In this document: piece by piece, positions 8,804 through 51,866 of the stretch
Layout of the letters: every line of letters starts with the position of its first letter
Numbering within the stretch: the stretch's first letter is position 1
Source: Candidatus Omnitrophota bacterium
GTDB taxonomy: Bacteria > CAIJMQ01
Reading direction: 5' to 3'
Length of the DNA: 64,000 nt
NCBI GenBank assembly: GCA_018812925.1
Contig: JAHJCU010000004.1
Location: forward strand, 529,441-593,440
Translations under genes and position numbers: made by a program
The notes under the pieces: model-generated
The model's database searches: none
What the model saw: the letters and a program-made list of their open reading frames with translations, nothing else
What the model was told of the DNA's origin: nothing

Positions 8804-8888
8804 GGAGAGATGGCTGAGCGGCTGAAAGCGTCCGATTCGAAATCGGATTTCCTGTAAGGGAACGGGGGTTCAAATCCCTCTCTCTCCG
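8804..8888 (+). tRNA. tRNA-Ser (anticodon CGA)
   Basis: The acceptor stem GGAGAGA (8804-8810) pairs with TCTCTCC (8881-8887); G8888 is the discriminator. The anticodon loop carries CGA (GATTCGAAATC), reading UCG. A long variable arm, typical of tRNA-Ser, precedes the T-stem GGGGG/CCCTC with loop TTCAAAT. CCA is not encoded: GCC is followed by T and the end is part of a hairpin CCGCC-TTC-GGCGG (8886-8898). Confidence 0.95.
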
Positions 8889-8961
8889 CCTTCGGCGGAC
8901 ACAGTCCGCTAATAGATTAGTACTAAGGAGCAAATTTTACTTATTACTTAGAACTATATTT

Positions 8962-9034
8962 GCCCCGATAGCTTAGTAGGATAGAGCGCTTCCCTGCGAA
9001 GGAAGTAGTGGCCGTTCGAATCGGCCTCGGGGCA
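8962..9034 (+). tRNA. tRNA-Arg (anticodon GCG)
   Basis: The acceptor stem GCCCCGA (8962-8968) pairs with TCGGGGC (9027-9033), discriminator A9034. The anticodon stem CTTCC/GGAAG holds the loop CTGCGAA with anticodon GCG, reading CGC/CGU. The T-arm is GGCCG-TTCGAAT-CGGCC. The 3' CCA is not encoded. Confidence 0.94.
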
Positions 9035-9092
9035 CTACGTTAACCTTGTTAATGAAAAAGACGTTAGCGAAACTAATGGTTATCGGTTTTCG

Positions 9093-9156
9093 CCCCTAGA
9101 AATTGCGAAGCAATTTCAGGGACCAAAGTCCCGGAAATCCTTTGGATTTCTCGGGG
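9093..9156. repeat. Palindromic element (CCCCTAG family) between tRNA genes
   Basis: The element runs CCCCTAGAAATTGC...GCAATTTCAGGGAC...GTCCCGGAAATC...GATTTCTCGGGG: two hairpins flanking a central GGGAC/GTCCC palindrome inside CCCC/GGGG ends. Other copies are at 21362-21424, 42038-42164 (two nested copies) and 50315-50378. Confidence 0.8.
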
Positions 9157-9208
9157 AAAACCAAACACCGTATTGTATTGAACGATAACCGTTGGTAGAT
9201 AAATTACT

Positions 9209-9298
9209 GGAGGAGTGGCAGAGCGGTTGAATGCGGCGGTCTTGAAAACCGTTAGATTCGTAAGAGTCTCAGGGGTTCGAATCCTCTCTCCTCCGCCA
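9209..9298 (+). tRNA. tRNA-Ser (anticodon TGA)
   Basis: The acceptor stem GGAGGAG (9209-9215) pairs with CTCCTCC (9288-9294); discriminator G9295 and an encoded CCA follow. The loop CTTGAAA carries anticodon TGA, reading UCA/UCG. The long variable arm fits tRNA-Ser, and the T-arm is AGGGG-TTCGAAT-CCTCT. It is the only tRNA of the three with an encoded CCA. Confidence 0.96.
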
Positions 9299-20806: not shown

Positions 20807-21457
20807 TTAATTGATTTGCATTGTAACATCTTTATTAATAGTCATTATATCTCCGGATGGTGAGAATTCTATCCCTTCCCCGTTAATATTCCATTTTTCT
20901 GCTTCTATTTCTACTTTGTCCTGCGTATGCATAGTTTCGGATATAGAGTCCCACGATAGACTGTCGCATTTTATGTTTGAATTTAAATAGCCTATTATTT
21001 GGACGTTATTTTTTAAATAGATTTCATCCTTCTTTTCTGCCTCGCCAACAGTCAAATTCTCTACTAAAACGTTTTCTTTCACTACTCCGTCATCTGCTTT
21101 TATTGTAAACGGGTCTTTGTCTTGGGGGTAAAATTTTACTTTTACTCCTTTAAGCGTTTTTGCATTTTCATCAAATTGCGCAGAATCCGCCTCAAGCTCC
21201 CATTTAATAATTTCTCCATCCATTTTTTTTGCTCTGAATCCTTTGGTCACGGATTGGGCAAAAATTGGCGATAGGCACAGAGGCACAAAGAAACAAAGGC
21301 ATAAAAGCACTTTATTAAAGATTGCAAATTTAAGATTAAAAATTCTTAGAATCTTAAATCTCCCTCTGGAATCTTGGAAAGATTTCGAGGACTTAGTCCC
21401 TGAAATTCTCTGAATTTCTAGGGGTGAATCTTGAATTTGGAATGGTATTTTATTCAC
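20807..21457 (-). CDS. lptC: LptC-like LPS transport protein with repeat-derived N-terminus
   Basis: Inner-membrane-anchored OstA-like protein that passes LPS from LptFG to LptA. The 216 residues have a hydrophobic segment at about 48-67 (KVLLCLCFFVPLCLSPIF), then an LptC-like domain: IIKWELEADSAQFDENAKT, IKADDGVVKENVLVENLT, VQIIGYLNSNIKCDSLSWD. The GTG start overlaps the upstream DUF502 gene by eight bases. Residues about 12-32 are encoded by a CCCCTAG-family palindrome (21362-21424), so the cytoplasmic N-terminus is probably an acquired extension; a later start near the hydrophobic segment is possible. Confidence 0.78.
   Translation of the reverse strand: MNKIPFQIQDSPLEIQRISGTKSSKSFQDSRGRFKILRIFNLKFAIFNKVLLCLCFFVPLCLSPIFAQSVTKGFRAKKMDGEIIKWELEADSAQFDENAKTLKGVKVKFYPQDKDPFTIKADDGVVKENVLVENLTVGEAEKKDEIYLKNNVQIIGYLNSNIKCDSLSWDSISETMHTQDKVEIEAEKWNINGEGIEFSPSGDIMTINKDVTMQIN
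21362..21424. repeat. CCCCTAG-family palindrome inside lptC 5' end
   Basis: Read on the minus strand this 63-bp element is CCCCTAGAAATT...AATTTCAGGGACTAAGTCCTCG...AGAGGG, the same length and layout as the insertion at 42088-42150. It is translated in frame as residues about 12-32 of LptC. Confidence 0.75.
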
Positions 21458-25205: not shown

Positions 25206-25265
25206 AGTACTCCTTTTGGAGTGCGAAGTCCCCCCTGTTAGTTTTGCCTTGCAAAACTAGGGGGG
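25206..25265. repeat. Composite palindromic repeat (GTACTCC + CCCCCC hairpins)
   Basis: Hairpin one is GTACTCC-TTTT-GGAGTGC; a spacer GAAGT follows; hairpin two is CCCCCCTGTTAGTTTT...AAAACTAGGGGGG (25230-25265). It ends one base before the stop codon of the leuB-like gene. Related composites: 26388-26447, 29949-30008, 38626-38695, 45125-45213, 51778-51866. Confidence 0.8.
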
Positions 25266-25266
25266 A

Positions 25267-26322
25267 TTATATCCTCGCCACCACCAAATCGCCTACCTGC
25301 GATGTGGTATATCCCATTTTACCCGCGCCTAATGATTTCAATTCTTTGCGGACGATATCTATTACCGCGTTCTCAATCGCTTTTGCCGCTTCCGCTTCGC
25401 CCAAAGTTTCCAACATCATAGCGCCTGCGCAAATTGCGGCTAACGGGTTAATAACATTTTGACCCGTATATTTCGGAGCGCTTCCGCCGATTGGCTCAAA
25501 CATAGAAATGCCTTCAGGATTGATGTTTCCGCCTGCGGCAATTCCCATTCCGCCCTGAATCATAGCGCCCAAATCGGTTATGATGTCGCCGAACATATTA
25601 TCCGTAACGATAACATCAAACCATTCGGGATTTTTAACAAACCACATAGTTGTCGCGTCAACGTGAGCATAATCGGTTTTAATATCGGGATATTCTTTTG
25701 CCACTTCGTTGAAAGTTCTCTGCCATAAGTCCCAGGCAAAAGTTAAAACATTGGTTTTACCGCAAAGAGTTAGCTTTTTGCCTTTATTCCGTTTTCTTGT
25801 CACCTCAAAAGCATAACGGATACAGCGCTCTACACCTTTTCTCGTGTTATAGGAAATCTGAGTCGCTACTTCATCCTTAGTTCCTTTATTCTGGAACTCA
25901 CCCATGCTCTTATAAAGCCCCTCTGAATTTTCCCTAACAACTATGAAATCAATGTCTTCGGGCTTCTTACCTTTTAACGGACAAAACGCCTCGTTATAAA
26001 GTTTTATAGGACGCAGATTTATATACTGGTCAAGCGAAAATCTTAAATTCAATAAAATACCCGTTTCCAATATGCCCGGTTTTACATCGGGATGACCTAT
26101 TGCGCCCAGATAAATTGCCGAATATTGCCTTAATTCCTCTATATCTTGTTTATCCAGTGTCTTGCCGGTCTTTAAATACCTTTCACCGCCAAAATCAAAA
26201 GTTTTTGTTTCGTACTCAAAACCAAACTTTTTACCGGTTGCTTCAAGCACCTTCAAGCCTTCATTTATTACCTCTGTCCCCGTTCCGTCACCGGGAATAA
26301 CCGCTATTTTGTATTTATTCAT
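25267..26322 (-). CDS. Isopropylmalate/isocitrate dehydrogenase family (probably LeuB)
   Basis: NAD-dependent beta-hydroxyacid oxidative decarboxylase of 351 residues. Signatures: [14 protein letters not shown] at the start, the substrate loop [48 protein letters not shown], and the metal-binding [20 protein letters not shown] followed by [20 protein letters not shown]. The [12 protein letters not shown] loop resembles 3-isopropylmalate dehydrogenase more than isocitrate dehydrogenase, but tartrate or homoisocitrate dehydrogenase cannot be excluded. No other leucine genes adjoin; a branched-chain aminotransferase is at 45.8 kb. The gene is bracketed by two composite palindromic repeats. Confidence 0.88.
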
Positions 26323-26387: not shown

Positions 26388-26447
26388 GCACTCCTGTAGG
26401 GAGTGCGAAGTCCCCCCTGTTAGTTTTACTTCATAAAACTAGGGGGG
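26388..26447. repeat. Composite palindromic repeat
   Basis: GCACTCC-TGTAG-GGAGTGC (26388-26406), spacer GAAGT, then CCCCCCTGTTAGTTTT...AAAACTAGGGGGG (26412-26447). The second hairpin is identical in sequence to that at 28909-28944. Confidence 0.8.
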
Positions 26448-26457
26448 ATCATTCCTC

Positions 26458-28508: not shown

Positions 28509-28960
28509 TGTTATTTTTTATCAAGAGGAAGTTATCATAAAAGATAACCTTTGTCAATCCGCCATTGAAGCCTTGGCGAGATTGACCTCGCCGATTTGTA
28601 GTGGCGGGTCAACATAATCGTGAAAAACTCACTAAAAAACACCAATTTTCACGGTTTTGAGTTGCAAATCTTCTTTAAAGGCTTTTGCAGTATAGTCTTT
28701 TTAAATTCTCTAAGTATGTTAGAAAGAACGACTTCAACTATATTCAGCGTAATTGAAGAAAACAAGCATTTCCTTCAATTAGACGGGTTCGGAACAATTA
28801 ACAACTTAATATAAGGTAGATAGTATCCAGTATCTGGTATCTAGTGTTTAGCATCTAGTATCTTGTATCCAGAATCTAGCATCCAGCATCTATCGTCCAT
28901 CGCGAAGTCCCCCCTGTTAGTTTTACTTCATAAAACTAGGGGGGATAGCTGTCCCTATTT
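28509..28960. repeat. Repeat-filled gap: palindrome, word array and CCCCCC hairpin
   Basis: No convincing gene. It holds a nested palindrome at 28559-28607 (CCGCCA...TGGCGG enclosing GGCGAG/CTCGCC), about 200 bases of unassigned sequence with a weak 64-codon frame, a GTATCTAG word array at 28812-28890, and the CCCCCC...GGGGGG hairpin at 28909-28944. Confidence 0.6.
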
Positions 28961-38625: not shown

Positions 38626-38695
38626 GCACTCTTCTGGTTTTATCAGAAGAGTGCGGAGTCCCCCCTGTTAGTTTTGGGAAGCAAAACTAGGGGGG
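38626..38695. repeat. Composite palindromic repeat
   Basis: GCACTCTTCTG...CAGAAGAGTGC (38626-38654), spacer GGAGT, then CCCCCCTGTTAGTTTT...AAAACTAGGGGGG (38660-38695). The first hairpin matches that of the copy at 45185-45213, where the order of the two hairpins is reversed. Confidence 0.8.
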
Positions 38696-38701
38696 ATATA
38701 T

Positions 38702-41959: not shown

Positions 41960-42037
41960 AAAGTAAAGAATAATAATTCGTAAACAGTAAATAGTAATCG
42001 GTAAATGGTAATTTTAAAAATTACGCTTTACGAATTA

Positions 42038-42164
42038 CCCTTAGAGATTGCCGAGCAATCTCAAGGACTTTGGTCCCGGGAATCTTTCCCCTAGAAATTT
42101 CTGCGAAATTTCAGGGACTCAGTCCTCGCAATTTTTCAAATTGCAGAGGGTAGATTCCACGGGG
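42038..42164. mobile_element. Palindromic element with a second copy inserted in its loop
   Basis: The outer element starts CCCTTAGAGATTGC (42038) and ends TAGATTCCACGGGG (42164). Between AATCTTT (to 42087) and TAGATTCC (from 42151) sits a 63-bp palindromic element (42088-42150), CCCCTAGAAATTTC...GCAGAGGG. At 50315-50378 the same outer element occurs without the insertion and is otherwise identical except for two bases in one loop. There is no target duplication. Confidence 0.85.
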
Positions 42165-42942: not shown

Positions 42943-43160
42943 AAGCGCAACTATGAACCCCTATACTACGTAGAGTGTAGGGCACAGCACGTAGGGTTCA
43001 CGGCGCAGCTTAGGAGAAGAGTCTGAGATAGTTATCCGTAATCCGTAAACGATAAAGAGTAAATAGTAATTAAAACAATGACTAATAACAGAAAAAATAT
43101 ATTTTAGATTAGTTAATTACCATTTACTAATTACGAATTACCAATTACAAGACGTAACCG
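42943..43160. repeat. Nested palindrome and TAATTGGTAATT-type array before prfB
   Basis: 42943-43010 is a layered palindrome: AAGCGC...GCGCAGCTT outside, GAACCC...GGGTTC inside, and CCCTATACTACGTAGAGTG in the centre. From about 43025 to 43160 come words such as TTATCCGTAATCCGTAAAC, AAATAGTAATTAAAAC and ATTACGAATTACCAATTAC. No gene. Confidence 0.6.
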
Positions 43161-44280: not shown

Positions 44281-44460
44281 TGAATGGTAATTTACAGTCC
44301 GTAAATTGTAATTAGTAATTGGTAAATAGTAATTAAAGAACCGTAAAGTGTAATCGGTAATTAGTAAATAGTAATTAAACAATAAAGACAACTTAAGAAA
44401 CTACGAATTACGCCCGCCTGCTTGCGAAGCGGGCAGGCTTTACGAGTTACCAATTACAAA
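44281..44460. repeat. TAATTGGTAATT-type array with CCCGCCTGC hairpin
   Basis: Words GGTAATTTACAGTCCGTAAA, TTGTAATTAGTAATTGGTAA, AAGTGTAATCGGTAATTAG and ACGAATTAC flank the hairpin CGCCCGCCTGCTTGCGAAGC (44411-44437), then TACGAGTTACCAATTAC. It fills the gap between prfB and tsaC. Confidence 0.65.
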
Positions 44461-50213: not shown

Positions 50214-50400
50214 ACGCCCGCCTGTTTACGAAATGGGCAGGAAACCCGTGTGCGTTAAATTTTGTAAATGGTAATTGGTAAATAGTAATTTTTAAAATTA
50301 CGGATTACGATTTACCCTTAGAGATTGCTAAGCAATCTCAAGGACTTTGGTCCCGGGAATCTTTTAGATTCCACGGGGCAAGTTACCGATTACGAAAAAA
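50214..50400. repeat. Hairpin, word array and palindromic element before folC
   Basis: CGCCCGCCTGTTTACGAAAT hairpin (50214-50240), words TAAATGGTAATTGGTAAATA and TTACGGATTACGATTTACC, then the empty-site element 50315-50378 (CCCTTAGAGATTGC...AGATTCCACGGGG), then TTACCGATTACG. No gene. Confidence 0.7.
50315..50378. mobile_element. Palindromic element, uninterrupted copy (empty site)
   Basis: 64 bp: CCCTTAGAGATTGC-TAA-GCAATCTCAAGGAC-TTT-GGTCCCGGGAATCTTT and TAGATTCCACGGGG. The copy at 42038-42164 has the same flanking 64 bases with a 63-bp insertion between AATCTTT and TAGATTCC. Confidence 0.85.
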
Positions 50401-50435: not shown

Positions 50436-51776
50436 ATGACCTACAAACAGTCTCTTGCTTGGCTATATGGTTTAGAAGGGCATGGAATAAAATTAGGTCT
50501 TTCAAATATCAAAAAACTTCTTGAACATTTTGGGAACCCGCATCTTTCCTATCCCGTTATTCTAATTGCCGGCACAAATGGTAAGGGTTCTGTTGCTTCT
50601 TTTATCGCCAATATATTGCGTGAATCGGGATTAAAAGTTGGTCTTTATACTTCCCCCCATCTTATAACAATAAGAGAAAGAATCAGCATACTGCAAAATA
50701 AAGACTTGCTCGCCTACGGCAAGCAGGCAGGCAAACAAGATATATCAAGGATAGCATTCACTCAACTTGCAAGTGAATTAAAGAAAGAAATTAAAAAAAT
50801 ATTCGATTGTCCTCCTTTTTCTCGCCCAACTTTTTTTGAAGTATTGACTGCACTCTCATTCATATATTTTAAAAAAGAAAAAATAGACGTGGCAGTTTAT
50901 GAAGTTGGTTTAGGCGGACGGCTTGACGCCACAAATATTACCGAGCCGTTCCTTTCCGTAATAACTGTAATTGGGATGGACCATACAAATTATCTGGGAA
51001 AAACGCTTTCGTCTATAGCAAAAGAAAAAGGAGGTATCATCAGGGGAAAAACCCCTTTGGTCACGGGCGCCGACGGTGAAGCGCTGGATACTTTGATTGA
51101 ACTTGCTAAAGCGAAAAAAGCGCCGATTTTTATATATGGGAAAGATTTTTCATTAAAAAATCATAAGGAAGAAGATTCGCACCAGCTTTTAAATATTCAG
51201 GGAATAAAAGATTTTTATCCGAATGTTTTAATCTCTTTGAAAGGTAAATGGCAGCATATCAATGCAAGTTTAGCTGTTGCCGCATCCGAAATTTTATCTA
51301 AATGGCTCCCCATTAAAAAAGAACACATATACAAGGGATTAGAAAAAACTACCTGGTCCGGAAGATTGGAGAGAATCGGCGAACGACCGTCTTTTATTCT
51401 TGACGGCGCGCATAATCCGCAAGCGGCAAAAATCTTAAAAGAAGAAATTATAAAAATAAAATCGGCGGGTAAGAATATAAAAATGATTTTTGGTGTGTTA
51501 AAGGACAAAGATAGAGAAAACATAATGAAAGAAATTTTTCCGGTGGTAGATGAAATTATTTTAGTTAAGCCCAACACTAAAAGAGCCGTGTCTTTGAGTA
51601 TATTGAAAAAAGAAGGCAAAATTTATAACAAAAATATAACAACAAGCATAAAGCTTGCATCAACAATAAAAGAGCTTAAGAAAAATAAAAAAGATAAAAA
51701 TATTATATTAATCTGCGGGTCTTTATATTTGGTAGGCGAAGCAAGAAGTATACTGCTGAAGAAGAAGCAGGAATGA
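50436..51776 (+). CDS. folC: Folylpolyglutamate synthase / dihydrofolate synthase
   Basis: Adds glutamate to folates (and, if bifunctional, to dihydropteroate). 446 residues. The Mur-ligase-like ATP-binding loop is LIAGTNGKGSVASFIANIL; LYTSPHLITIRERI, YEVGLGGRLDATNI, ITVIGMDHTNYLG and ERIGERPSFILDGAHNPQA follow. Residues about 88-102 (LLAYGKQAGKQDISR) lie where other FolC proteins have none and are encoded by a small palindrome-like sequence near 50705-50735. The stop is directly followed by a composite palindromic repeat. Confidence 0.94.
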   Translation: MTYKQSLAWLYGLEGHGIKLGLSNIKKLLEHFGNPHLSYPVILIAGTNGKGSVASFIANILRESGLKVGLYTSPHLITIRERISILQNKDLLAYGKQAGKQDISRIAFTQLASELKKEIKKIFDCPPFSRPTFFEVLTALSFIYFKKEKIDVAVYEVGLGGRLDATNITEPFLSVITVIGMDHTNYLGKTLSSIAKEKGGIIRGKTPLVTGADGEALDTLIELAKAKKAPIFIYGKDFSLKNHKEEDSHQLLNIQGIKDFYPNVLISLKGKWQHINASLAVAASEILSKWLPIKKEHIYKGLEKTTWSGRLERIGERPSFILDGAHNPQAAKILKEEIIKIKSAGKNIKMIFGVLKDKDRENIMKEIFPVVDEIILVKPNTKRAVSLSILKKEGKIYNKNITTSIKLASTIKELKKNKKDKNIILICGSLYLVGEARSILLKKKQE

Positions 51777-51777
51777 T

Positions 51778-51866
51778 CCCCCCTAGTTTTACTTCATAAA
51801 ACTAACAGGGGGGACTTCGCACTCCAACCCTGAACCACGTAGGATTCAGGGCAAAGACAGGAGTGC
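51778..51866. repeat. Composite palindromic repeat with inner insertion
   Basis: CCCCCCTAGTTTT...AAAACTAACAGGGGGG (51778-51813), spacer ACTTC, then GCACTCC...GGAGTGC (51819-51866), whose loop contains another palindrome, CCCTGAA...TTCAGGG. Relative to the other copies the two hairpins are in reversed order, so the whole composite lies in the opposite orientation. Confidence 0.8.

Follow-up and report, generated by a model that had tools for sequence, protein, structure and literature searches.

Short DNA elements that fold into two hairpins are mobile in this Omnitrophota genome, a firm and well supported conclusion, and it is also well supported that they favor hairpin tips beyond their sequence target. 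Within the window (the whole 64,000-nt stretch of DNA analyzed), a type A host element of 64 nt, at positions 42038–42164 on the plus strand (sequence and fold), has another element lodged in the loop of its hairpin 2. The left part of the interrupted host (42038–42087, plus strand: hairpin 1, spacer and hairpin-2 left arm) and its right part (42151–42164, plus strand: hairpin-2 right arm and GGGG end) were read directly from the letters and make up one 64-nt element. The insert, a type B double hairpin (42088–42150, plus strand; sequence and empty-site match), places 63 bases between ...GGAATCTTT and TAGATTCC..., at the junction AATCTTT^TAGATTCC, with no base gained by duplication and none lost. 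An intact type A element with an empty hairpin-2 loop is present at 50315–50378 (plus strand; sequence and empty-site match), and its sole mismatch with the split host is the loop of hairpin 1 (TAA vs. CGA). When the host flanks were joined without the insert, they matched, with no gap, an unoccupied copy at another place in the genome (94.6% over 74 bp). A sequence-only reading of this DNA had proposed an occupied/empty pair lacking a target duplication; direct reading of the letters confirmed it, and the site is real.

The empty host is itself an insertion. The element at 50315–50378 entered a TTACNNN heptamer array at TTTA^CAAG, and its joined flanks gave an ungapped match to an empty array copy (93.7% over 63 bp). 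The two further copies reported by the earlier reading were recovered as relatives of the insert: a type B element of 63 nt on the minus strand at 21362–21424, in an AAGATTN heptamer array (sequence), and a 64-nt element on the plus strand at 9093–9156, between tRNA genes (covariance model). Three Rfam tRNA genes lie in window 8804–9295 (8804–8888, 8962–9034 and 9209–9295), with the double-hairpin element between the second and the third.

Host and insert had been taken for separate elements. Type A (CCCTTAGAGATTG...CACGGGG) and type B (CCCCTAGAAATTTC...AGAGGG) can be aligned end to end. The two are subtypes of a single double-hairpin family. The family unit has a length of 63–65 nt, CCC(C/T)...GGG ends, a left hairpin CCCT-A-GAAATT..AATTTC-AGGG, an ACTnnAGT spacer and a right hairpin CC(C/T)NGGAAT..ATTCC-A-NGGG. 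As single-stranded DNA, host and insert each fold into two hairpins with one unpaired base near each hairpin foot (z-scores of -6.3 and -7.4). The nested structure of 127 nt at 42038–42164 folds as a double hairpin inside the second hairpin (z -8.1). Covariation was analyzed in 21 copies. The two-hairpin fold left 98.2% of cells paired, with 8 pairs altered on both sides and 41 double-changed cells vs. 0/500 shuffles; a cloverleaf fold, which left 92.0% paired, was rejected. Column pair 5–31 changed from C-G to U-A in 6 copies and pair 43–70 from C-G to U-A in 8, and two hairpins are preferred over the cloverleaf because these two pairs fit them. The element gave no covariance-model match to a known Rfam RNA family. 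Between close copies, differences per site amounted to 0.283 in apical loops, 0.043 at other unpaired positions and 0.0175 at paired positions, so that apical loops differ at 16 times the stem rate and at ∼7 times the rate of other unpaired positions. Since weak constraint on loops gives the same direction, loop divergence alone is no proof of loop cutting.

When the 1.47-Mb genome (assembly about 92% complete) was searched with a covariance model, 114 strand matches were obtained, corresponding to roughly 60 places with a best E of about 6e-20, which excludes a chance origin; 50 are full copies. Among 30 relatives, the same model matched three, namely two congeners and a further member of the family, and found no match in the other 27. 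Further copies were found in congeners, in a sister genus and in MAGs labelled Omnitrophota, Auribacterota, Nitrospirota, Spirochaetes and Syntrophaceae. Scanning 84,980 species genomes for the pattern returned 60 stretches in 19 assemblies, with labels that include Ratteibacteria, Omnitrophota, Auribacterota, Nitrospirota, Spirochaetes and Syntrophaceae. A total of 150 full copies with flanks were gathered, and reading was limited to the stretches around copies. Carriage of the element by phages or plasmids was not found in annotated collections. Four IMG/VR contigs bear the element (L231–L234).

Joining the flanks produced an ungapped match to an empty site (≥85% over ≥40 bp) for 31/147 copies. 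After removal of the self-matches of window 21362 and L043, about 29 empty/occupied matches were left, many of which fall in low-complexity heptamer arrays. The strongest were L218 (94.6% over 74 bp), L211 and L221 (92.6% over 68 bp each), the 42088 insert and window 50315. Neither G001 nor G002 has the element in the spacer orthologous to that of 50315, and none was found in the stretch of the G003 spacer that was read. What decides the matter is a pair of orthologous nested sites next to a tRNA-Pro gene. In this genome the host (L179) has an empty second loop, and in the congener G001 the orthologous host (L196) is filled with a 63-nt element, both flanks being nearly identical. The earlier claim that the elements move is borne out by this pair and by the empty/occupied matches. 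We show that presence or absence of the element is lineage-specific. Some copies are common to orthologous loci, so the insertions differ in age. No autonomous version of the element was seen.

Insertion points were aligned for 130 copies after removal of near-identical flanks. At position -3, T was present in 72% (29% background); at -2, Y in 88% (46% background); and A was present at +2 in 68% and at +3 in 76% (36% background), giving a nearly symmetric target rule, TYR^NAA. Insertions into a hairpin tip, defined as the loop of a stem scoring 7 or more, made up 22/130 (16.9%), compared with 1.1% at random nearby sites and 1.8% at target-matched sites (Fisher, p about 2e-14), and hairpin loops are therefore enriched as targets, as the sequence-only reading had suspected. 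Target duplications of 1–2 bp were as frequent as in a mismatched-flank control and showed no excess at most lengths, so target duplication was rejected; the target-site duplication of MITEs (DDE transposons) is likewise not found here. Direct repeats of ≥6 flank a few copies (2.7% vs. 0.5%).

Five clear nested cases in the second-hairpin loop were observed in three genomes: window 42088, L172 and L176 in G000, L196 in G001 and L211 in G002. At L035 the nested element sits in the spacer, not in the second-hairpin loop. Palindromes of the type CCCCCCTAGTTTT..AAAACTAACAGGGGGG are further hosts, and their empty form is present in the window.

Palindromes of another dispersed family (CCCCCCTGTTAGTTTT..AAAACTAGGGGGG) occur at window 25218–25270, 26400–26452, 28897–28949, 38648–38700 and 51775–51825, and their loops at other loci also hold double-hairpin elements. 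Imperfect heptamer arrays (GTAATTN/TTACNNN, AGTATCT) fill spacers at window 41978–42037, 43036–43074, 44299–44379, 50264–50314 and 28808–28891, and orthologous places differ among congeners. CGTC-REP-like repeats (GTCATTGCGAGCGAC) are interrupted by the element at L035 (1478–1590), L113, L122 and L020, several of the copies showing the identical step CTCG^CAATGAC. A longer dispersed palindrome of Omnitrophica GWA2_41_15 (CCCG.CTCG^TAAGAT...) holds the element always at the same position (L078, L083, L086, L090, L104, L119, L124 and L127).

How the element moves is best accounted for, with an even chance of being right, by mobilization in trans through folded single-stranded DNA. On this view the element is a non-autonomous mobile DNA of 63–65 nt that consists of two bulged hairpins in inverted orientation. 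An enzyme acting in trans on folded single-stranded DNA, for which HUH-like chemistry would fit, may recognize the two hairpins as ends and join them into unpaired target DNA, e.g., a hairpin loop. In this genome such an enzyme may have been lost, may be missing from the assembly or may belong to another family. The following observations were counted against this explanation: (i) no Y1 transposase was found in this genome or in carriers G003 and G033, and the Y1 genes examined in other genomes have no copies beside them; (ii) in this genome strand orientation was not biased with respect to local GC skew, as lagging-strand transposition might cause; (iii) the near-symmetric target suits a double-strand mechanism too; (iv) neither an autonomous version nor, in the opening residues of the translations, a transposase-like gene between neighboring copies was seen; (v) a few copies have the longer direct repeats; and (vi) many of the empty-site matches fall in low-complexity arrays. 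In G002, a weak strand-orientation bias was seen with 16 copies.

A RAYT- or TIRYT-type Y1 transposase of most carriers might move a REPIN-like element, the gene having been lost recently here, a scenario that we regard as unlikely. It would agree with the absence of target duplication and with the paired inverted hairpins. Y1 genes were also found in 19/22 carrier entries searched (a few entries represent one genome twice), but this co-occurrence is given no weight. Against this scenario, no Y1/RAYT gene was found in this genome, either with Pfam or with a profile built from the Y1 proteins of relatives, no Y1 transposase was found in carriers G003 and G033, and the GTAG tag is missing. The flanks (up to 300 bp on either side) of 29 Y1 loci from related MAGs contained no convincing element match; several of these loci have long unrelated terminal inverted repeats, often with TGTCCCC or a similar motif. 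A covariance search of the same loci detected one element (L138), at a distance of well over 1 kb from the Y1 match. RAYT was rejected as a linked partner because the Y1 genes are located elsewhere and their flanks are unlike the element. An IS110 recombinase and a reverse transcriptase were absent from the five genomes searched, including this one, and the enzymes named in the sequence-only reading (RAYT or IS200/IS605-like, IS110-like) thus found no support.

Somewhat less probable is movement with no transposase at all, in which SbcCD-like opening of hairpin tips would be followed by capture or copying of another element. The loop preference of the insertions and the excess divergence of apical loops over stems and over other unpaired positions count in its favor, but the element ends are exact every time, a target sequence is preferred, and many insertions lie in heptamer arrays that are not palindromic. 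Site-specific recombination by an unrecognized tyrosine or serine recombinase has a slimmer chance still. A duplication-free, near-symmetric TTR^YAA-like target is in keeping with such an enzyme, and one large serine recombinase is encoded in this genome; this protein was rejected as the mover because a search for the serine type found none in carriers G001, G003 and G033. Drift, assembly error or the copying of composites as larger blocks, which would fit the constant association of some subtypes with one surrounding repeat type, is very improbable given the empty/occupied pair at orthologous loci, with flanks nearly the same in two independent assemblies, the nested cases in three genomes and the ungapped empty sites.

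Genes between neighboring copies, judged by eye on the opening residues of each translation, included none that is transposase-like, and an autonomous composite was rejected on this basis. A terminator role was rejected because there was no enrichment between converging genes (7 of the 89 copies that have a gene on either side).

In its workings the element is like a REP dimer or a REPIN. As in REPINs and BIMEs (Bertels and Rainey, 2011; PMC3116915), two inverted REP-like hairpins act as one mobile non-coding unit. In contrast to them, the element has no GTAG foot (GTAG was at an element end in 1/150 copies and GGAG in 0/150), no RAYT gene was found in its host genome, at about 92% completeness, and the Y1 genes examined are unflanked by it. 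Like the REP dimers that bear a CGTC tag (Di Nocera, 2013; PMC3733652), the elements are small inverted-dimer hairpins present in several phyla, with no linked transposase gene. Some CGTC REP dimers lie inside palindromes in H. neapolitanus, where no free target palindromes were found, and CGTC REPs without a transposase are described (PMC3733652). The element differs in its fixed 63–65-nt unit and in a spacer that carries AGTC on both strands, and here host palindromes were seen in both states, free and filled, along with a nested pair at orthologous loci; CGTC, the one counted among the tag variants CGTC, TGTC and CCTC, was at an element end in 2/150 copies. Because the GTAG and CGTC tags are absent from the ends and no RAYT was found linked to it, the element was filed neither as a REPIN nor as a CGTC REP. 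Duplication-free insertion at a preferred short target is shared with IS200/IS605-type elements, and the Y1 HUH transposase typical of these was not found in this genome.

Mitochondrial double-hairpin elements and yeast GC clusters (PMC2800124, PMC4478555) are likewise mobile palindromes with variable loops and conserved stems, and they undergo similar cluster merging and shuffling; the resemblance is one of behavior only. Yeast GC clusters have short putative duplications (AG or ACT), whereas the bacterial element is generally without them. In REP-targeting IS elements (PMC1525189) a palindrome is also the insertion target, and ISRm22 inserts at the palindromy axis, but these are full IS that encode a transposase themselves, and the majority generate direct repeats.

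We tentatively entertain a broader reading, although it may well prove wrong, in which this cross-phylum family of mobile DNA would represent a new route to unpaired hairpin tips that proceeds with no known transposase family and, in the course of movement, opens and rewrites the tips. The mover of CGTC-type REP dimers and of organelle hairpin elements has long been missing. In the family described here the ends and a target rule are defined, sites are known both vacant and filled, and carriers occur with and without Y1, which makes the question of the mover testable. Palindromes act here as landing sites, and this would explain the growth of nested, mosaic spacer repeats.
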